Source: Aquimarina sp. ERC-38 (lineage in GTDB: Bacteria; Bacteroidota; Bacteroidia; Flavobacteriales; Flavobacteriaceae). From it: 64,000 nt of DNA. Below are positions 5 to 44,738 of the stretch, in pieces. The notes beneath the pieces were generated by a model. That model saw only the letters and a list, made by a program, of their open reading frames with translations. It was not told the DNA's origin and made no database searches. The stretch lies in contig NZ_CP098511.1 in the NCBI RefSeq assembly GCF_026222555.1, positions 1,841,501-1,905,500 of the forward strand, given 5' to 3'. Each line of letters starts with the position of its first letter. Within the stretch, counting starts at the first letter, position 1. The position numbers and the translations under genes are program-made.

Positions 5-670
5 TTAAAATTCACCATATTTATATACTAATAATAACAGTGTACCATAGAACAATACTAAGTTTATCATAACAAAGAAAAAGCGTTTGAATTTGGTCAA
101 TTTAAAAGCTTTGGAGTTCCAAATAATAACAAGTAAATGAAATGGTATATAAAATAACTGTTCAATTTTATTATTATTTACTATCAGACTCAACATTATT
201 GATATTGGAAAGAAAATAATTACCCATAAACTTACATTATAAATATTCAGAATTAAATGCTCAAAAATATTTTTCTTGAATTGTATATAGAGTAAATAAC
301 TAGATAAAGTTAGTAAGAGAATATTCGTTAATAAGATTATAAATTGTGAAGAAATATTACTTGATATTACAATTCCCAAAAAATCATTTGCGATTGAATA
401 GTGTAATAAAAGAAATAAAGATGCTATCGTAAAGAATTTTCCAGGACTAAAATAATACTTCCTAAATCCATTCCAATAGTTAGTAGCTAGTGTTTCAGGT
501 TGTCTTAAAGCAATTTTAATATTTTTAAAAAAAGATTTTTCAAGAGAAAAAATACTATCAAACAAATCCACAAATATTGTTCGAAATGTAACTCTAGTGT
601 TCTTAAAATATTGACCACAATTTGAGCAATAATTTTCTTTAATTTCGTTGAAGCAAACAGAACATTTCAT
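5..670 (-). CDS. DUF3667-type zinc-ribbon membrane protein
   Basis: Small inner-membrane protein of unknown function. The N-terminus carries a four-cysteine zinc ribbon (C3, C6, C15, C18 counted from this start), followed by a short RQPETLATNYWNGFRKYYFSP stretch typical of the DUF3667 group in part (RPG..I..FI.GKR..), then about four hydrophobic segments. The ATG at 670 is preferred because it places the first Cys pair at residues 3 and 6, exactly as in the paralogue at 50783-51544; upstream codons lie inside a palindromic repeat. It is the last of a run of leftward small genes. Family assignment is from motif memory; the role is unknown. Confidence 0.7.
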   Translation of the reverse strand: MKCSVCFNEIKENYCSNCGQYFKNTRVTFRTIFVDLFDSIFSLEKSFFKNIKIALRQPETLATNYWNGFRKYYFSPGKFFTIASLFLLLHYSIANDFLGIVISSNISSQFIILLTNILLLTLSSYLLYIQFKKNIFEHLILNIYNVSLWVIIFFPISIMLSLIVNNNKIEQLFYIPFHLLVIIWNSKAFKLTKFKRFFFVMINLVLFYGTLLLLVYKYGEF

Positions 671-710
671 ATGTTGATTTCCGTTTTTGAATTTTGTTCT
701 GACATTTTTT

Positions 711-774
711 ACAACGTTACGTATAACAAGCGTAGCCTGCTGATACATGGCTATACATCGTTATACATCGTTGT
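711..774. repeat. imperfect palindrome between gene units
   Basis: The two arms, ACAACGTTACGTATAAC (711-727) and the reverse complement of the stretch ending CGTTGT at 774 (ACAACGATGTATAACG), match with small bulges, so the 64 bases can fold into a long imperfect hairpin. It lies between the stop of the gene at 785 and the start of the gene at 670. Similar structures occur at 1661-1851 and 44604-44738. The shape recalls attC-like recombination sites or terminator-like repeats, but the core does not match the integron consensus well. Confidence 0.6.
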
Positions 775-784
775 GCGTTCGTTT

Positions 785-1174
785 TTATTCTTTATTAAAC
801 ATATTTTCATAATCTTTTACGTGATGAGGGAATTCCTCCTTATAAAAAGGATACGGAATTCCAAATATTGATATTTCATATTCTTCCTTATCCATTCCTG
901 TTATTTGATTTTCGACTCCTTTAATTTCAATTCCCTTATCATTAGTAATTTTTAGCTCAGAAATATTCGTTGTCGAAATCATTTTATCTTCTGGATAATC
1001 AGAGGCGAGTTCAATTTGATTATTCTCACAATATTCTTTTAAAAGATCATATCCAAATTTTTGGTCGGTAAATCTTAAATCACCGATAACAACTCCCATA
1101 GGTACATCTGCTTTTTCCAATTCCGTTGTTCCAATTAGAAGTCCATTTAAGTATATATTGTATATTTTACTCAA
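785..1174 (-). CDS. hypothetical protein, second gene of a two-gene unit
   Basis: A 129-residue acidic soluble protein without signal peptide or membrane segment. I do not recognise the family. The start is a TTG (1172-1174) that overlaps the end of the upstream gene by 8 bases, which suggests translational coupling; the next ATG would be residue 26 and would remove a well-folded-looking beginning (KIYNIYLNGLLIGTTELE). Pairing with the gene at 1167-1628 in a unit bounded by a 9-bp inverted repeat suggests an accessory gene pair. An immunity-type role would be a guess only. Confidence 0.6.
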   Translation of the reverse strand: MSKIYNIYLNGLLIGTTELEKADVPMGVVIGDLRFTDQKFGYDLLKEYCENNQIELASDYPEDKMISTTNISELKITNDKGIEIKGVENQITGMDKEEYEISIFGIPYPFYKEEFPHHVKDYENMFNKE

Positions 1175-1628
1175 CTTTTTTTATTTTATTATCCATATAT
1201 AATTTTTCGACAACTAATTTTAAATTCTGCCGATCCATTCCTTCAACTTCACTTTTGTACTTATCAACTGACTGCATATAAGATAAAAGAAACCAAGAAT
1301 CTATATGCCCAAATTCAGGTGAATTGGTTAAAACGACCTCTACTTTCTTTTGATGTTTTTTATTATAAAATCTGCATCCTCCTATATGAAAGTTGTAGTT
1401 CCATCTTTTTGAAAGTTCTCCTCTTCTAGGAATATTTTTATTACTTCTTGAAATTAATTTTTCGTAATCTTCTTTAATCCCAATATCTAAACCATATTTT
1501 TCTCCAAGCTTAAACATAAGTTCTTTTCCTTCTTGACGATAATCAGTTATAGCTTCTTGAACAATATCAAGATTGACATCGTTCCTTTCTTCTTTTTTGA
1601 GAAGGTTATGAATCCATTTTTTAATCAT
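1167..1628 (-). CDS. hypothetical protein, first gene of a two-gene unit
   Basis: A protein of about 153 residues, rich in Lys and Glu at the front, with a central Trp/His/Gly segment (KRWNYNFHIGGCRFYN). No family recognised, no signal peptide, no membrane segment. ATG at 1628 is chosen over upstream non-ATG starts because the upstream codons run into the repeat at 1661-1669. The last codons overlap the TTG start of the next gene. The unit 785-1628 is flanked by CGTTGTGCG (769-777) and CGCACAACG (1661-1669), an exact inverted repeat. Confidence 0.55.
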   Translation of the reverse strand: MIKKWIHNLLKKEERNDVNLDIVQEAITDYRQEGKELMFKLGEKYGLDIGIKEDYEKLISRSNKNIPRRGELSKRWNYNFHIGGCRFYNKKHQKKVEVVLTNSPEFGHIDSWFLLSYMQSVDKYKSEVEGMDRQNLKLVVEKLYMDNKIKKVE

Positions 1629-1660
1629 TAATTGCTTTTCATTTTCGGTAACGCAAACGA

Positions 1661-1851
1661 CGCACAACGTTTAGTTATATGTAGTGCAGGAGCAAAAATC
1701 AAAGGTTTTCGAGCAAGCACTTAGCTAAAGTTTATGTTTTGTTTTTATATTTTCTAAAATACTGAATTTAAATCTTTGGCGACAAACCAAATAAGTAATG
1801 ACTTTTCGATTAAACCCAAATCCTGCATTATCGCATAGGTGTTGTTACCAG
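1661..1851. repeat. intergenic element with imperfect terminal inverted repeats
   Basis: One end reads CGCACAACGTTTAG... followed by TGCAGGA; the other end, read on the opposite strand, gives GGTAACAACACC...TGCAGGA. The spacing of the ACAAC and TGCAGGA blocks is alike on both arms, so the ends can pair. The inner part is AT-rich and holds no gene. The right end overlaps the stop codon of the gene at 1845. Related in layout to 711-774 and 44604-44738. Confidence 0.5.
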
Positions 1852-2276
1852 TAGTTTACTCTTCTGTCAATTTTAGGTTTTTCGTTCAGTTTTTCCGCAA
1901 AAATATTGTTTTCACTTTCAAAGTTGTCTTCATTTTCAGGGATTATTTGTAAGAGTATTTCTGTCTTTTTTCTGTCAAGTGTGATTTCTCCACCTAACTC
2001 AGAACTGTTTTGTTTTACTCCATAAATTGTTCCGTCAGATAATATTACTCTGTGCCAAGACGAGTAGTCCGTTCTTAATGAAAACTCTAAAAAATACTCA
2101 TCTTTTAAGTTTTTTTTAAATAGGAATCTTGAGTTAATCCCACCACGCATACCATCAGTATAAAATTCAAATTCAGTTATTTTGTTAAAATCGAAGCGGT
2201 TAGGTAAAGAGCATTTTCCATTATTAGCTTTCTTAAAAGCTAGTCTAAAAATTTTTATTTTCTCTTTTCCGATCAT
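1845..2276 (-). CDS. hypothetical protein in a repeat-bounded unit
   Basis: A soluble protein of about 143 residues, not recognised. It has alternating strands with aromatic and charged residues (EFYTDGMRGGINSRFLFKK) and a C-terminal acidic tail (PENEDNFESENN). ATG at 2276 is chosen; the longer reading frame to a TTG at 2306 would translate the bounding repeat. The whole unit is framed by an exact 11-bp inverted repeat, TGTTGTTACCA at 1840-1850 and TGGTAACAACA at 2295-2305, with the stop codon inside the first copy. Confidence 0.55.
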   Translation of the reverse strand: MIGKEKIKIFRLAFKKANNGKCSLPNRFDFNKITEFEFYTDGMRGGINSRFLFKKNLKDEYFLEFSLRTDYSSWHRVILSDGTIYGVKQNSSELGGEITLDRKKTEILLQIIPENEDNFESENNIFAEKLNEKPKIDRRVNYW

Positions 2277-2290
2277 TTTGTTTGTTCCAA

Positions 2291-2306
2291 TTGTTGGTAA
2301 CAACAA
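2291..2306. repeat. right boundary repeat of the 1845-2276 unit
   Basis: TTGTTGGTAACAACAA is itself a small palindrome (TTGTTG/CAACAA) and contains TGGTAACAACA, the exact inverse of the sequence at 1840-1850. Together they bracket one gene. It sits 19 bases from the tpiA stop codon. Confidence 0.55.
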
Positions 2307-2324
2307 TATAAAGAATACAAACCC

Positions 2325-3077
2325 CTAAATAGCCCTAACAATAGCTTCAAAACTTTCAGCATCTAGGGCGGCACCTCCGATCAGTCCTCCGTCTACATCT
2401 TGTTTAGCAAAAATTTCTTTAGCATTGGCTGGTTTAACACTACCACCATAAAGGATGGAAACCTGATCTGCAATTTGCTGATCAAAAGCTTTTGCAATCG
2501 TTTTTCGGATAAAGGCATGCATTTCCTGGGCTTGTTTCGGGCTTGCCGTTTCTCCCGTACCAATGGCCCAGACCGGTTCATAAGCCAGAATAATTTGGCT
2601 CCAGGCACTTTTATCCAGGTCAAACAACGCATTTTTAAGTTGGCTTGCTACCAGGTCAAAATGTTTATCACTTTTCCGGTCGTTTAATTCTTCTCCAAAA
2701 CAAAAAATGACAGTCATTTCTTTTTGTATAGCCGTAACTACTTTTTCTTTAAGAATAGCATCCGTTTCCCCAAAATGGGCTCTTCGTTCGCTATGCCCTA
2801 AAATTACCGTCTCTACTCCGATACTTTTTAACATATCCGCAGAAATTTCACCGGTAAAAGCACCATTAGCCGCTTGGTGCATATTTTGTGCAGCTACGGT
2901 AATGGTAGTCTCTCGCAATTGTTCAAAACTGTAATACAAATTAGTAAACGTAGGGGCTACAATAACTTCAACATTATCGATTTGATCTACTCGTCCTTTT
3001 AATTCACCTAACAAATTACCTGTTTCCGCCAGGTTTTTATTCATTTTCCAGTTTCCGGCAACAATCTTTTTTCTCAT
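2325..3077 (-). CDS. tpiA: triosephosphate isomerase
   Basis: Interconverts dihydroxyacetone phosphate and glyceraldehyde 3-phosphate in glycolysis and gluconeogenesis; cytoplasmic homodimer. The 250 residues match the usual family length. Visible are the active-site AGNWKMNK at residues 7-14 (N9, K11), LGHSERR with the catalytic His near residue 95, YEPVWAIGTG with the catalytic Glu near 166 and the mobile loop, and the phosphate-binding YGGSVKP near 210. The ATG at 3077 gives the standard N-terminus. It is a single-gene unit with a short leader and a candidate promoter upstream. Identification is firm. Confidence 0.97.
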   Translation of the reverse strand: MRKKIVAGNWKMNKNLAETGNLLGELKGRVDQIDNVEVIVAPTFTNLYYSFEQLRETTITVAAQNMHQAANGAFTGEISADMLKSIGVETVILGHSERRAHFGETDAILKEKVVTAIQKEMTVIFCFGEELNDRKSDKHFDLVASQLKNALFDLDKSAWSQIILAYEPVWAIGTGETASPKQAQEMHAFIRKTIAKAFDQQIADQVSILYGGSVKPANAKEIFAKQDVDGGLIGGAALDAESFEAIVRAI

Positions 3078-41184: not shown

Positions 41185-41589
41185 GAGGATACTTTTCTTT
41201 TTTGACCAAAAGTAGGATATAGAAGGTGTACATTATTTATGAAATAGTAAACAGTATTTAACCAAATAATTATCTTTTATCCGGTACGTTATTTTAATGT
41301 AACTACTTTAAGGTTCCGGTAGACTTAGTGGCTTTTATATTACCGTTTTAAAATTTAGTAAAGTGTTTATACAACGTAAAGGTAACCGCTCGTATGTTAT
41401 TTCACTCTTTTGATAAATATTTACTAGAGATACCTTCTTTTAAAGAATATCTAAATACTATAAGGTTATGCCTTTATACAAACTACCAAACATCATCCTC
41501 CTAGTAATAAATACTTTTAAATTGATCAAAAATCCCTTAGATTCGTAAAATATATACGGGAAATAAAGGATGTATGTCTTTTATATTAT
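41185..41589. other. divergent intergenic region
   Basis: About 400 AT-rich bases between phoD (leftward) and the FAD oxidase (rightward). Contains the phoD promoter box at 41207-41214. No further gene or clear structure seen; it ends at the boundary repeat at 41590. Confidence 0.5.
41207..41214 (-). promoter_or_regulatory. candidate phoD -7 element
   Basis: Minus-strand TACTTTTG fits TAnnTTTG, 22 bases before the phoD ATG. No TTG at the standard distance upstream. Confidence 0.4.
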
Positions 41590-41600
41590 TGTTGGCAGGA
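41590..41600. repeat. left boundary repeat of the FAD oxidase unit
   Basis: TGTTGGCAGGA here and its inverse TCCTGCCAACA at 44601-44611 bracket one gene. The match extends with mismatches to 16 bases. The same plan (gene framed by its own short inverted repeat) is seen at 785-2306. Confidence 0.55.
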
Positions 41601-41626
41601 ATTACAAAAAACAAAATCAAAAGATA

Positions 41627-44593
41627 ATGCCGTTTAGAGTCACAGAAAATTTAAGAGATAAAAAAGTTTATAAAGAAATTCAAGATGACGATATCGAGTT
41701 ATATGGAGAAATACATAATAGGAGTGATGTCACTCTAATTAGTACTGGAGAAACTTCTATAATTGGTCGAATCGATGATTCCACATTGACAGTCATTTCA
41801 GAAACAGAAATAAAGCATACTGGCAATTTGGATGGTTCTAGTTCGGTAAAATTAATTTCAAAACAAGGAAATGTAACTGTTAACGAAGAAATTAATGGAA
41901 GTTCGTCATTAGCTGTCGAAGCGGCATATGACATTACATTGAAAGGTAACATTAATGGAAGTAGTTCGATTAATCTCATAAGTAAATACGGTAATATCAC
42001 TATACATTCTAGTGATATAAACGGTAGTTCACGTCTAACTGCAATTGCAGAAGGTGACATCATATTCAACAAACATAATGGTGATGGTGCTGATATTAAT
42101 GGAAGTAGTTTTGTAGAACTTATAAGTACAAGAGGTTCTATTACTATCGATGGTCACGTAGATGGTAGCTCTACTGTTAGATTAACGGCTTTCAAGGACA
42201 TAACTATCCACGAAATTGATGACAGTAGTTCTGTTATATCAAGAAGCAATGGGAAAATAATATTGAATGGAAAAATTGATGGAGATTCTTATGCTGAATT
42301 TCGCGCTAATGAAGGCATCTTAATTACAGACAAAGTTTCAGGAAATTCTTTGACCAAACTAGCAACTAATTCAGGTGAAATACGAATTAACAATAACATC
42401 GAACACGGTGGGAAAGTTATCTACTGGCCAAGTCCGTCATTTCAGCTTGGCGGTTCCGGAAGTAATTCTGCAACTGCCGAAGAATGGGTTTCTGAATATG
42501 ACCCCTCTATAGGTGGAGAAATTGAAGGGTCTTGGTGGAATAACTGGTTTTGGTCTTATGGATTTGTTTCTTACAACATTAATAAACCCAAAACACTCGA
42601 AGAGCTTATTGAAATTGTTAAAAACAATCAAGGTAATACTATTAAAGCTGTAGGTGGTGGTTGGTCTTTTTCAGATATTAATCTTCCGTTACAAGAACAA
42701 AATGAAGTTAGTCAGGTTTCAATTTTCGGCAAAGGAAAAGGTAATTCAGTAGACCTTAGCAAGGTTTTCAGGCATATGAACAATTTTGGTCTTCCTATGG
42801 ATAATTATCCGCAAGAAGTGGCAAGATCTTTAAATCACTCTTCCGATTACAACTTAAACGAACTTAGAAATGATGTCCGAAGCGGGGTTCACTTACAGTC
42901 AGTGGCTTCAACCGAATGTGTATTGATAGACACAAGGGGTCTTAATTCAAGTTTGCAATGTCATTTGGGTGAAGTTAACTACGAAGATAGCTTTGGTAAA
43001 CCATATTATAGGTTTTGGGTTGAAGCAGGAATTACAATGACTGATTTGAATAAGCTTCTCGACCATCAATCTCCAAGAATGGCAATTGAGGCTAGTGGAG
43101 GTTCACCAGGAGCAACATTAGCAGGAACTTTAGCTACAGCTACACACGGGGGAGAGTATAAGGATAAACTTCTTGTTGATAGGATAAAAGCGGTTCATTT
43201 AGTTGCGCCAAATGGTGAACAATGGTGGATTGAAGGGAAAGATAAGGTGATGGAAGAAATTGAATTAAAAAATGCTTTAGGTACAAGAAACATTAATATT
43301 ATTAATAATGCTACAACAAACTTATCAGGCTTAACTTCAGAAGATTTTTTAAAAACTGTGGTGGTATCTCTTGGTGCTATTGGTATTGCATATTCAATTG
43401 TTTTGGATGTTGTTCCTCAATTTACAGTAAGACAGAAAACCATAAAATATTGTGGCAATGAAAACGCGACGGGTTGGCAAAACCTCCTCTCAAAAGCGAA
43501 TGTGTCCATTTCTGATTTGGAAAATAGAGATTCAACGGCTAATGAAAGACTTGTAAATTTTTTAAAGGATGGAAGTCTTAATGGCACAGGTATACCCGAA
43601 GAAAAAAATAGATATGTAGACTTAGCTATTAATCCATTAAGTTATTCCTCGTGGATAGTAAACAGAGAATTTTTTGAACAAAAAATAGCAATCGATAAAA
43701 ACCAGCCAACTTTATTTGAAACCTATCCTGCTTCTTTAACTCAAAAAATGACAGAAGGTGCTGATAGTGCTGAAATGGGTGGCCAATTGGTCGGTAGAAT
43801 ATTAGATTTTATGAGTTTACCTAGGGATACTCTTGGACTCGCAATAACAGCAGGTCATATTCCTTCTTTTCCAAATGCCTTATCAAATTCACCAATGCTA
43901 TTATCTGCATTGATGTCGCACCTTCAAGTTAAAGCTATGTGGAATCAGACAAATGAATCTGATAAGCGAAGAGGACATAAATTTTTGGATGATATTTTAG
44001 AGGGTATTTTAGATGCTCTACAGAATACTTATGAAGAAGTAGTTTCTGATTTTACAGGGCTTTCCTATGAAGTAGGTGCAATAGGCTGGCCTGATGGTGG
44101 TTTCCCCGGTAGAGGTTATGAAGTTGCATTGCCTTCTACAGTTGCATTCAGTTATACGGTTGAGATTATGCGATTGATAGAAAACTTCCGAAGTCAAAAC
44201 AAAGTCTTTCTTGGGTATATCTCAATTAGATTATGTCCAAAAACAAACACTCTTTTTGGTATGCAGCAATTTGAAGACTCAGTAATGGTAGAAGTTGTTG
44301 CACATAGAACTCCTCAAGCCAATGAAATATTCGATGAGTTGATTAATTACACCAAATCCTATAACATTACGCCAAACTTCTCTACACAAACATTTCCTAT
44401 GTTTCATTGGGGTCTTGAAACCGAACTTTTTGATGGGACATATCTTGAAAATACCATTTTAGGTGAACCTTATTCTGTAAGTCTTGGAATGTCAAGGTTA
44501 GATGTTTTCAAATTTGTAAAAGATTACATTAGAAAAGGGGAACCTCCGATATTTGATAATGCATTTCTAAATAGAATGGGACTTAATTCGTAA
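41627..44593 (+). CDS. beta-repeat / FAD-linked oxidase fusion protein
   Basis: About 988 residues from ATG 41627; an ATG at 41570 would add 19 residues that cross the boundary repeat. Residues 20-270 contain about nine repeats of 22-26 residues of the form DGSSxVxLISxxGxITIxxxI, a likely beta-helix. After a Trp-rich link (GSWWNNWFWSYG) comes a PCMH-type FAD-binding domain (KPKTLEELIEIVKNN, AVGGGWSFSDI, WVEAGITMTDLNKLL, GGSPGATLAGTLATATHGGEY) and a C-terminal oxidase substrate domain. The flavin half resembles sugar-lactone or aldehyde oxidases. No signal peptide, so location is uncertain. Confidence 0.75.
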   Translation: MPFRVTENLRDKKVYKEIQDDDIELYGEIHNRSDVTLISTGETSIIGRIDDSTLTVISETEIKHTGNLDGSSSVKLISKQGNVTVNEEINGSSSLAVEAAYDITLKGNINGSSSINLISKYGNITIHSSDINGSSRLTAIAEGDIIFNKHNGDGADINGSSFVELISTRGSITIDGHVDGSSTVRLTAFKDITIHEIDDSSSVISRSNGKIILNGKIDGDSYAEFRANEGILITDKVSGNSLTKLATNSGEIRINNNIEHGGKVIYWPSPSFQLGGSGSNSATAEEWVSEYDPSIGGEIEGSWWNNWFWSYGFVSYNINKPKTLEELIEIVKNNQGNTIKAVGGGWSFSDINLPLQEQNEVSQVSIFGKGKGNSVDLSKVFRHMNNFGLPMDNYPQEVARSLNHSSDYNLNELRNDVRSGVHLQSVASTECVLIDTRGLNSSLQCHLGEVNYEDSFGKPYYRFWVEAGITMTDLNKLLDHQSPRMAIEASGGSPGATLAGTLATATHGGEYKDKLLVDRIKAVHLVAPNGEQWWIEGKDKVMEEIELKNALGTRNINIINNATTNLSGLTSEDFLKTVVVSLGAIGIAYSIVLDVVPQFTVRQKTIKYCGNENATGWQNLLSKANVSISDLENRDSTANERLVNFLKDGSLNGTGIPEEKNRYVDLAINPLSYSSWIVNREFFEQKIAIDKNQPTLFETYPASLTQKMTEGADSAEMGGQLVGRILDFMSLPRDTLGLAITAGHIPSFPNALSNSPMLLSALMSHLQVKAMWNQTNESDKRRGHKFLDDILEGILDALQNTYEEVVSDFTGLSYEVGAIGWPDGGFPGRGYEVALPSTVAFSYTVEIMRLIENFRSQNKVFLGYISIRLCPKTNTLFGMQQFEDSVMVEVVAHRTPQANEIFDELINYTKSYNITPNFSTQTFPMFHWGLETELFDGTYLENTILGEPYSVSLGMSRLDVFKFVKDYIRKGEPPIFDNAFLNRMGLNS

Positions 44594-44603
44594 GAATAAC
44601 TCC

Positions 44604-44738
44604 TGCCAACACGGTGTATAAGTAATAGCGGTTTAAGTGATAAAATGAAAGTTAAGACATAAAACAAAGGTCAATTCAAAACCGAAAGGTTTGTGAGTAG
44701 AAATCCGCTACTACTCATACACTAGACCGTTATCAGCA
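44604..44738. repeat. 135-base hairpin-forming intergenic element
   Basis: The left arm (TGCCAACACGGTGTATAAG...TAGCGG, 44604-44631) pairs imperfectly with the right arm (CCGCTACTACTCATACACTA... to 44738), leaving bulged bases, as in attC-type sites. The middle reads AAAACAAAGGTC...CCGAAAGGTTT. It separates the FAD oxidase unit from hamA. Related in layout to 711-774 and 1661-1851. GGTGGCAACAACGG at 47941-47954, after hamB, looks like the start of another copy cut by an IS. Confidence 0.65.

Follow-up and report, generated by a model that had tools for sequence, protein, structure and literature searches.

The closest described systems are integrons, in which the core boxes of the attC sites conform to the consensus RYYYAAC and GTTRRRY. 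In the definition given in PMC9668308, the integron integrase IntI carries an IntI-specific additional domain, and PMC4792948 treats recognition of extrahelical bases by the I2 domain as what made it possible for integron integrases to recombine folded single strands. A subgroup of integron-like tyrosine recombinases in which the catalytic-domain insertion is not fully conserved is described in PMC8138268. For the Bacteroidetes, PMC9024848 states that a previous survey had recorded nothing but In0 elements and goes on to report a single complete integron, in Salinibacter ruber; Bacteroidota or Bacteroidetes/Chlorobi appear among the integron hosts listed in PMC8618304, PMC9668308 and PMC2426708; according to these listings, IntI-type integrons therefore do occur in Bacteroidota. 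The DNA considered here, referred to as the window, is a stretch of 64,000 nucleotides from the 4.43 Mb single-contig genome of Aquimarina sp. ERC-38 (G000:C1:1841501-1905500). Its small gene units are interpreted as gene cassettes of an integron-like system driven by a recombinase, of which the window holds left-over cassettes, a reading to which a probability of roughly 85% is assigned. A literature search outside bioRxiv that included few subscription papers found no description of such a system.

Framed gene units and hairpins in the window

The reading of positions 1-2306 as a decayed gene-cassette cluster is supported, with cassettes A, B and C lying behind tpiA and on its strand (Table 1). 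The first-pass annotation had described two small units here as each bounded by an exact inverted repeat of its own, and both frames are present: cassette B, the two-gene unit, lies between CGTTGTGCG (769-777) and CGCACAACG (1661-1669), with a match that extends to 10 nt (769-778, 1660-1669), and cassette A lies between TGTTGTTACCA (1840-1850) and TGGTAACAACA (2295-2305), matching at 11 of 11 positions as claimed. At the opening box of cassette A complementarity reaches 10-11 nt, which is also the range across the three framed units of the window. An automated comparison of the flanks scored 10 nt for the first unit and only 5 nt for the second, since the latter repeat overlaps the end of the ORF. 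Among 4000 random pairs of 60-nt segments from the window, an exact inverted repeat of at least 9 nt occurred in 1.8% and one of at least 11 nt in 0.23%, so that a single frame is only moderately unlikely by chance. The protein of cassette A has no match in a Pfam scan, the gene of cassette C presumably starts at the ATG at 670, and the degenerate end site of cassette C lies beyond the window (G000:C1:1841339-1841465; 18.7 bits with the covariance model). In ten of ten same-genus relatives (six assessed by regular expression, four read by eye), always the same ORF, which we take to resemble prmA, is found within about 300 nt downstream of tpiA. The cassettes occupy this place in Aquimarina sp. 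ERC-38, and a regular-expression search for the motif of that ORF gave no match across the window and a further 8.5 kb outside it.

Table 1. Coordinates and basis of the features in the window
Feature	Position	Strand	Sequence, score or remark
tpiA	2325-3077		name assigned by eye
Cassette A, opening R' box	2298..2304	-	GTTGTTA; from the sequence, 20 bp downstream of the stop codon of tpiA
Cassette A gene	1845..2276	-	143 aa from ATG
A/B site-like hairpin, degenerate	1662..1847	-	R'' TAACAAC, R' GTTGTGC; covariance model, unfiltered, 14.7 bits
Cassette B gene 1	1167..1628	-	DUF6896 (PF21837), 62.4 bits
Cassette B gene 2	785..1174	-	129-aa protein; listed start TTG, ATG at 1099
B/C short site-like hairpin	709..776	-	R'' GCACAAC, R' GTTGTAA; covariance model, unfiltered, 30.9 bits
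Cassette C gene	5..670	-	DUF3667-like, under cut-off; ORF listed as 5-748
Second cassette, body	41591..44603	+	FAD-binding protein gene; ORF 41570-44593
Second cassette, recombination site	44604..44735	+	R'' TGCCAAC, R' GTTATCA; covariance model, 71.0 bits

Neighbouring unit ends had also been proposed to join into long imperfect hairpins, and this proposal stands on comparison with the sites of other genomes rather than on folding energy, which is unremarkable in both regions (z -0.84 for 700-785 and +0.33 for 1640-1860). In an unfiltered search of positions 1-2700, the covariance model R1, trained on 35 sites that all come from other genomes, ranks the two hairpins as its best minus-strand matches, the A/B match being weak; on the plus strand the B/C region scores 20.6 bits, against 30.9 on the minus strand. 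The filtered R1 search of the whole genome reports none of the three degenerate sites behind tpiA, and strict hairpin detectors gave no site for the window, for three stretches of the same genome, for genome G024 or for part of genome G078. R1 recovered sites in G024 and in own-genome stretches. In the whole genome of Aquimarina sp. ERC-38, eight sites reach E<=0.001, one of them at 44604-44735 in the window; a strict pattern search found the window site alone. A 91-nt hairpin of the window has one further match in its own genome at E <0.01, a partial site, and neither Rfam nor a plasmid collection, the latter with one Persicobacter record, provided a known name. A separate observation concerns a stretch of at least 1.5 kb that is present in several copies, 94-98% alike (L061, L062, L188, L191, L197 and L200), and whose similarity stops at or near own-genome cassette sites, several copies being cut by the edge of the locus; it is possibly an insertion sequence aimed at cassette sites.

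The interpretation of positions 41591-44735 as an isolated, intact-looking cassette is likewise supported. This unit opens with GTTGGCAGGA and closes with TCCTGCCAAC, the two being complementary over 10 nt and the closing part running into the site at 44604, and the true start of its FAD-binding gene probably lies inside the cassette. Directly after the site, HamA and HamB form a complete-looking Hachiman anti-phage pair (44771-47928). No closing box TGATAAC follows this pair in the window before 57379, and the two genes are therefore more likely neighbours than a cassette.

Putative cassette arrays and the recombinase at their head in related genomes

The first-pass annotation had noted that no integrase lies in the window and had suggested a cassette-like mobile system with unit-specific ends. 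Its observation holds, and arrays of the suggested kind are found in related genomes, where a tyrosine recombinase heads them: in the same family, they consist of a recombinase of about 390 aa, an attI-like site 3' of it and co-oriented cassettes with hairpins between them. The array of genome G068 spans about 533 to 603 kb and comprises 37 inter-site stretches, 34 of them under 6 kb (median 915 bp), and each of these 34 has its longest ORF in the orientation of the sites, one such ORF having just 16 aa; owing to missed sites, some stretches comprise several units. Five of ten cassette proteins that were scanned have a Pfam match at E<=0.001, namely Imm7, DUF3885, DUF6896, SseB and a leucine-rich repeat, the last under its cut-off. 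A cassette with an Imm7 immunity protein is seen at L065:13357-13749.

Read in gene orientation, the site plan is R''(NNNNAAC), 3 nt, stem, loop, stem, 6 nt, R'(GTTNNNN), over a length of 128-221 nt (median 133). Counts of cores and strands rest on 70 of the 79 detected sites, those of L175, of the G068 minus strand and of out-of-range length being omitted. The detected sites have the form R''(NNNCAAC), a 16-nt stem and R'(GTTGNNN), with spacers of 3 and 6 nt in 58 of 70; CAAC/GTTG and unequal spacers are partly built in, since the detector demanded both, and TAAC/GTTA also occurs among the sites found with R1. The cores had been thought to fit the attC consensus poorly, and indeed only 3 of 70 R' boxes agree with GTTRRRY and 1 of 70 R'' boxes with RYYYAAC, the AAC and GTT triplets being required by the detector. 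Hairpins recur within a genome, some of them near-identical. At five loci, no Rfam family reaches its gathering score at the sites; the array at L118 has two sub-gathering matches at E<=1. Flavo-1 RNA (RF01705) is seen at L118:9841-9919, on the opposite strand and immediately 5' of the Algibacter onchidii array recombinase.

An attI-like site was sought in 13 of the 17 site-bearing loci and in G068. The first R'' predicts the sequence of the opening box, and this sequence stands between the recombinase and the first site in full (7 of 7 nt) in 12 of the 13 loci, and at L118 as a 6-mer only. The box lies within 170 nt of the recombinase stop codon in 11 of 13 loci (one a 6-mer), more than 800 nt away at L128 and L130, and 27 nt away in G068. 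Ten of the 14 places were aligned, with TA and GTT in all ten rows and, before the opening box, ATATAAC in six and ATATAAAC in two.

The ends of a cassette match each other, which is the central test of the cassette reading. Among 50 of the 53 R1 hits, all in named loci and in part also among the 35 training sites of R1, the R' before a cassette is complementary to the R'' at its end at 7 of 7 positions in 26 of 33 consecutive pairs, the remaining 7 being without a match; R'' and R' within a single site are so in 3 of 50. The model does not favour end matches, since its three outer positions are unpaired. Over 5000 shuffles of these pairs, the mean number of matches is 2.4 when pooled (maximum 11) and 8.7 within a locus (maximum 17). 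Every joint is perfect in the Lutibacter array L117 (7/7) and in the Algibacter array L118 (9/9). With a separate, earlier hairpin detector, 33 of 50 pairs match at the three outer positions, compared with 10 of 79 within a site, and 2000 shuffles give a mean of 10.9 and a maximum of 21. Circular cassettes joined at G|TT would leave such a unit-specific match.

The hairpin arms are also asymmetric between strands. On the gene strand of the 70 detected sites, 121 A.C oppositions stand against 6 G.T, and after removal of duplicates 48 distinct arm pairs retain 88 and 6, respectively, compared with 50 A.C and 40 G.T in 48 chance hairpins from reversed sequences. Because A.C on the gene strand is G.T on the other, the bottom strand is the more stable: for the arms in 65 of the 70 detected sites (top strand in 4), for the whole site in 63 (top in 7), and in 42 of 45 sites evaluated among the 53 R1 hits (top in 3), with the caveat that sites within one genome are related and the counts thus not independent. 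A folded bottom-strand substrate would give this bias; an RNA hairpin would give the opposite one. Single-base bulges are predicted in 7 of the 45 bottom strands and 9 of the 45 top strands, leaving 38 bottom strands without any, and bulged sites are under-counted here since the detector and the model, the latter trained on ungapped stems, were both built on ungapped hairpins.

Recombinase loci were drawn from a scan of named genomes, and the best 80 of at least 591 were considered. They contain 53 R1 hits, of which 50, at 17 loci, lie on the recombinase strand and 3' of the recombinase gene; two more are upstream and opposite (L175), and one is a duplicate on the reverse strand (L123). The first detector, applied to 39 loci, gave 17 on the same strand and 3', 1 on the same strand and 5', 5 on the opposite strand and 1 in reversed sequence. 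Of 40 tabulated loci, 38 are titled Bacteroidota, L134 is archaeal and L136 unassigned; sites are present in 14 and absent from 6 of the 20 with at least 1.5 kb downstream, and present in 3 of the other 20. The remaining 40 loci, none titled Bacteroidota, have no site at E<=0.05. Site-bearing genomes with the recombinase of about 390 aa also hold separate Xer-like ORFs of about 300 aa. In Aquimarina sp. ERC-38 itself, the recombinase is seen solely as a fragmented copy with in-frame stops (G000:C1:2813748-2814541). On its 3' side, a weak site (G000:C1:2810512-2810699; E 0.067) shares the orientation of this broken gene, and the strain may have lost its active platform.

The integron integrase model TIGR02249 picks a tyrosine recombinase of 376-409 aa in six same-family genomes with sites, always under its cut-off, which was reached in none of the seven genomes searched, the own genome included. 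Its matches to the array recombinases flank a gap at about 178-239, and the array recombinases are without the IntI insertion of about 42 residues: the spacing from KGxKxR to HxLRH is 58-63, compared with 100-101 in eight of ten IntI rows (two not measurable), seven array-recombinase rows also giving 100 from a second, earlier motif match. In a tree, the array recombinases fall outside the ten-row IntI clade (100/100 support). They are not a single clade, as L145, which has sites, groups with L148 on a separate branch and rows without known arrays are interspersed among them; with ten open forks, the tree is compatible with IntI either descending from the array recombinases or being sister to them. 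The best NCBIfam match is NF040815 (XerA-like), above its cut-off in two of four proteins scanned, and the curated XerC and XerD cut-offs (335.15 and 329.6 bits) are not reached by the same number of proteins, at 171-193 bits. Similarity to one member at E<=1e-20 extends to 6514 of 8000 scored proteins, under names such as XerD and tyrosine-type recombinase. An AlphaFold model (mean pLDDT 83.5, pTM 0.57) retrieves generic tyrosine-recombinase matches in Foldseek, with XerA 5hxy best and IntI 2a3v at rank 7. In four proteins, the N-terminal region of about 90 aa has no Pfam match; precomputed Pfam lists give PF22823, somewhere in the protein, for many members. This region is possibly a second DNA-binding domain. 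Residues ~1-90 of A1/A4 are seen to run strand-strand-helix-strand-strand-helix, with a conserved WS...FY.

R1 sites at E<=0.001 occur in 106 of 120 same-family genomes and in 62 of 198 genomes of the phylum, 13 of these 62 belonging to the own family, in a search with strict filters in which at most 28 (family) and 17 (phylum) candidates were scored per genome and E-values are rough. The recombinase is found at E<=1e-70 in 83 of the 120 family genomes, comprising 81 of the 106 with sites and 2 of the 14 without (p 1e-5), an association confounded by size because most site-less family genomes are small; in 25 of the 106, sites are present and no recombinase passes the threshold. A plain pattern search also marks 83 of 120 family genomes, although it is unspecific and its backward control often matches too. 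Four features go beyond what the first-pass annotation expected: how widely the sites are distributed, their asymmetry between strands, the attI-like site and a recombinase other than IntI.

Shared units and alternative explanations

Two checks proposed at the outset concerned related genomes: whether the same genes occur there without end repeats, and whether whole units are exchanged between the ends. DUF6896 is present in 9 of 199 sampled same-family genomes and the 129-aa gene in 13 of 397, the own genome counted in both; within the latter sample, the gene is missing from two same-genus genomes, G177 and G554. Among the twelve other genomes with the 129-aa gene, eight have a co-oriented site directly after it, and at four (L239, L240, L244 and L245) none was found there. 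G068 holds both genes of cassette B in the same order with similar ends, at 83.0% DNA similarity over 920 columns, and the similarity, at window positions 761-1670, ends 4-14 nt from the core boxes on either side. The hairpin of cassette B in the window is shorter than and different from that in G068, and gene and hairpin thus did not travel together there. G068 and G451, by comparison, share the gene end and the hairpin almost letter for letter, and diverge from within R'. Among the nucleotide alignments to cassette B, four stop at the same base, 9 nt past R'', and two at the last base of R''. In a small test of seven alignments, two of which match whole units well, 9 of 28 alignment ends are no more than 25 nt away from a box, compared with a mean of 1.35 and a maximum of 6 in 500 random draws. 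Exchange of whole units is suggested by few cases, with breaks near the boxes in G068 and G451. At L009, on a Persicobacter plasmid (CP012860), the 129-aa gene has a homolog that is accompanied by a similar hairpin; immediately after GAAC there comes an element that combines a tyrosine recombinase with an IS91-like transposase (families and boundary assigned by eye).

In principle, the units could be what is left of an ordinary integron (CALIN), the attC sites being canonical and IntI encoded at another place in the genome, as the plan is the same in its recombinase, attI-like site, co-oriented cassettes and matching unit ends, and IntI-type integrons are recorded for Bacteroidota in the sources cited above (PMC9024848, PMC8618304, PMC2426708). 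The position of the array recombinases outside the IntI clade, their motif spacing of 58-63 rather than 100-101, the TIGR02249 cut-off reached in 0 of 7 genomes and the poor core fit (GTTRRRY 3/70, RYYYAAC 1/70) nevertheless make this quite improbable. Mobility by another route, with the units as small transposons or MITE-like elements bearing their own terminal repeats, or homologous recombination between repeated hairpins, would suit the repeated and sometimes nearly identical hairpins within genomes and the isolated cassettes in the own genome. It is hardly likely, given that the terminal match is short and unit-specific, that the hairpin sits at the junction of units and that arrays begin 3' of a recombinase gene with a predicted opening box; homologous recombination, moreover, would not hold R' to the next R''.

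An explanation without any mobility would make the hairpins RNA structures or terminators of transcription, and the units no more than small operons that are neighbours; it agrees with the intergenic position of the hairpins and with the unremarkable folding energy of the two in the window. It is, however, the strand equivalent to the transcript that bears the A.C mismatches, and in 42 of 45 sites this strand gives the poorer fold; no Rfam match was found at the sites of the loci searched, and this explanation accounts neither for ends that match across a gene nor for unit sharing with breaks near the boxes; it is considered extremely unlikely.

Proposed mechanism and comparison with known systems

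In the mechanism proposed for the cassette system, a tyrosine recombinase of family A1 would recombine the attI-like site 3' of its own gene with the hairpin sites at the 3' ends of cassettes, the reacting form of the cassette site probably being the folded bottom strand and crossover presumably taking place at G|TT in R'. A cassette would be excised as a circle in which R'' and R' come from one unit, which would be why each end of a unit pairs with the other end of that unit rather than with the half-site next to it. Insertion at the attI-like site would build arrays of co-oriented cassettes, and insertion at other GTT places might yield isolated ones; the window would hold degenerate left-over units behind tpiA and one intact-looking unit beside the Hachiman operon. 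That the system would work like an integron is well supported by its anatomy as read from sequence; by the IntI definition, it is not an integron.

On balance, we favour the broader view that Bacteroidota possess a second, native kind of integron, in which a recombinase that at no stage contained I2 recombines folded single-strand sites and a nearly bulge-free, G.T-marked hairpin replaces extrahelical bases, that it arose independently or represents the state preceding the gain of I2 by IntI, and that it ranks among the most common platforms for gene capture in flavobacteria. As end matching and strand bias persist where the I2 domain is missing and most bulges appear to be, the requirements for single-strand cassette recombination become directly testable. 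Of the 120 genomes sampled from one Bacteroidota family, 106 have sites, and current finders may therefore overlook a large pool of mobile genes.

Compared with recombinases of the XerA/XerC/XerD type, to which NF040815 as the best curated match and XerA 5hxy as the best Foldseek match relate them, the array recombinases differ in their N-terminal extension and in standing at the head of cassette arrays. Family A1 resembles the subgroup of PMC8138268 in that the catalytic-domain insertion is not a constant feature there, and in the part of that account considered, no arrays or sites are described for the insertion-less members. With integrons, the system shares a recombinase with an attI-like site next to it, arrays whose genes are mostly small and have one orientation, the AAC/GTT core, an unpaired central spacer, a bottom strand that folds better, and complementarity between the ends of a unit, which PMC2727003 gives as 9-11 nt for known cassettes and which is 10-11 nt in the window. 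It differs from them in recombinases that lack the IntI-specific insertion and carry an N-terminal extension of about 90 aa, in cores other than GTTRRRY, in the 3/6 nt spacer, apparently in G.T pairs that take the place of most bulges (a single-base bulge is predicted for no more than 7 of the 45 bottom strands), and in arrays that lie 3' of the recombinase and are co-oriented with it.
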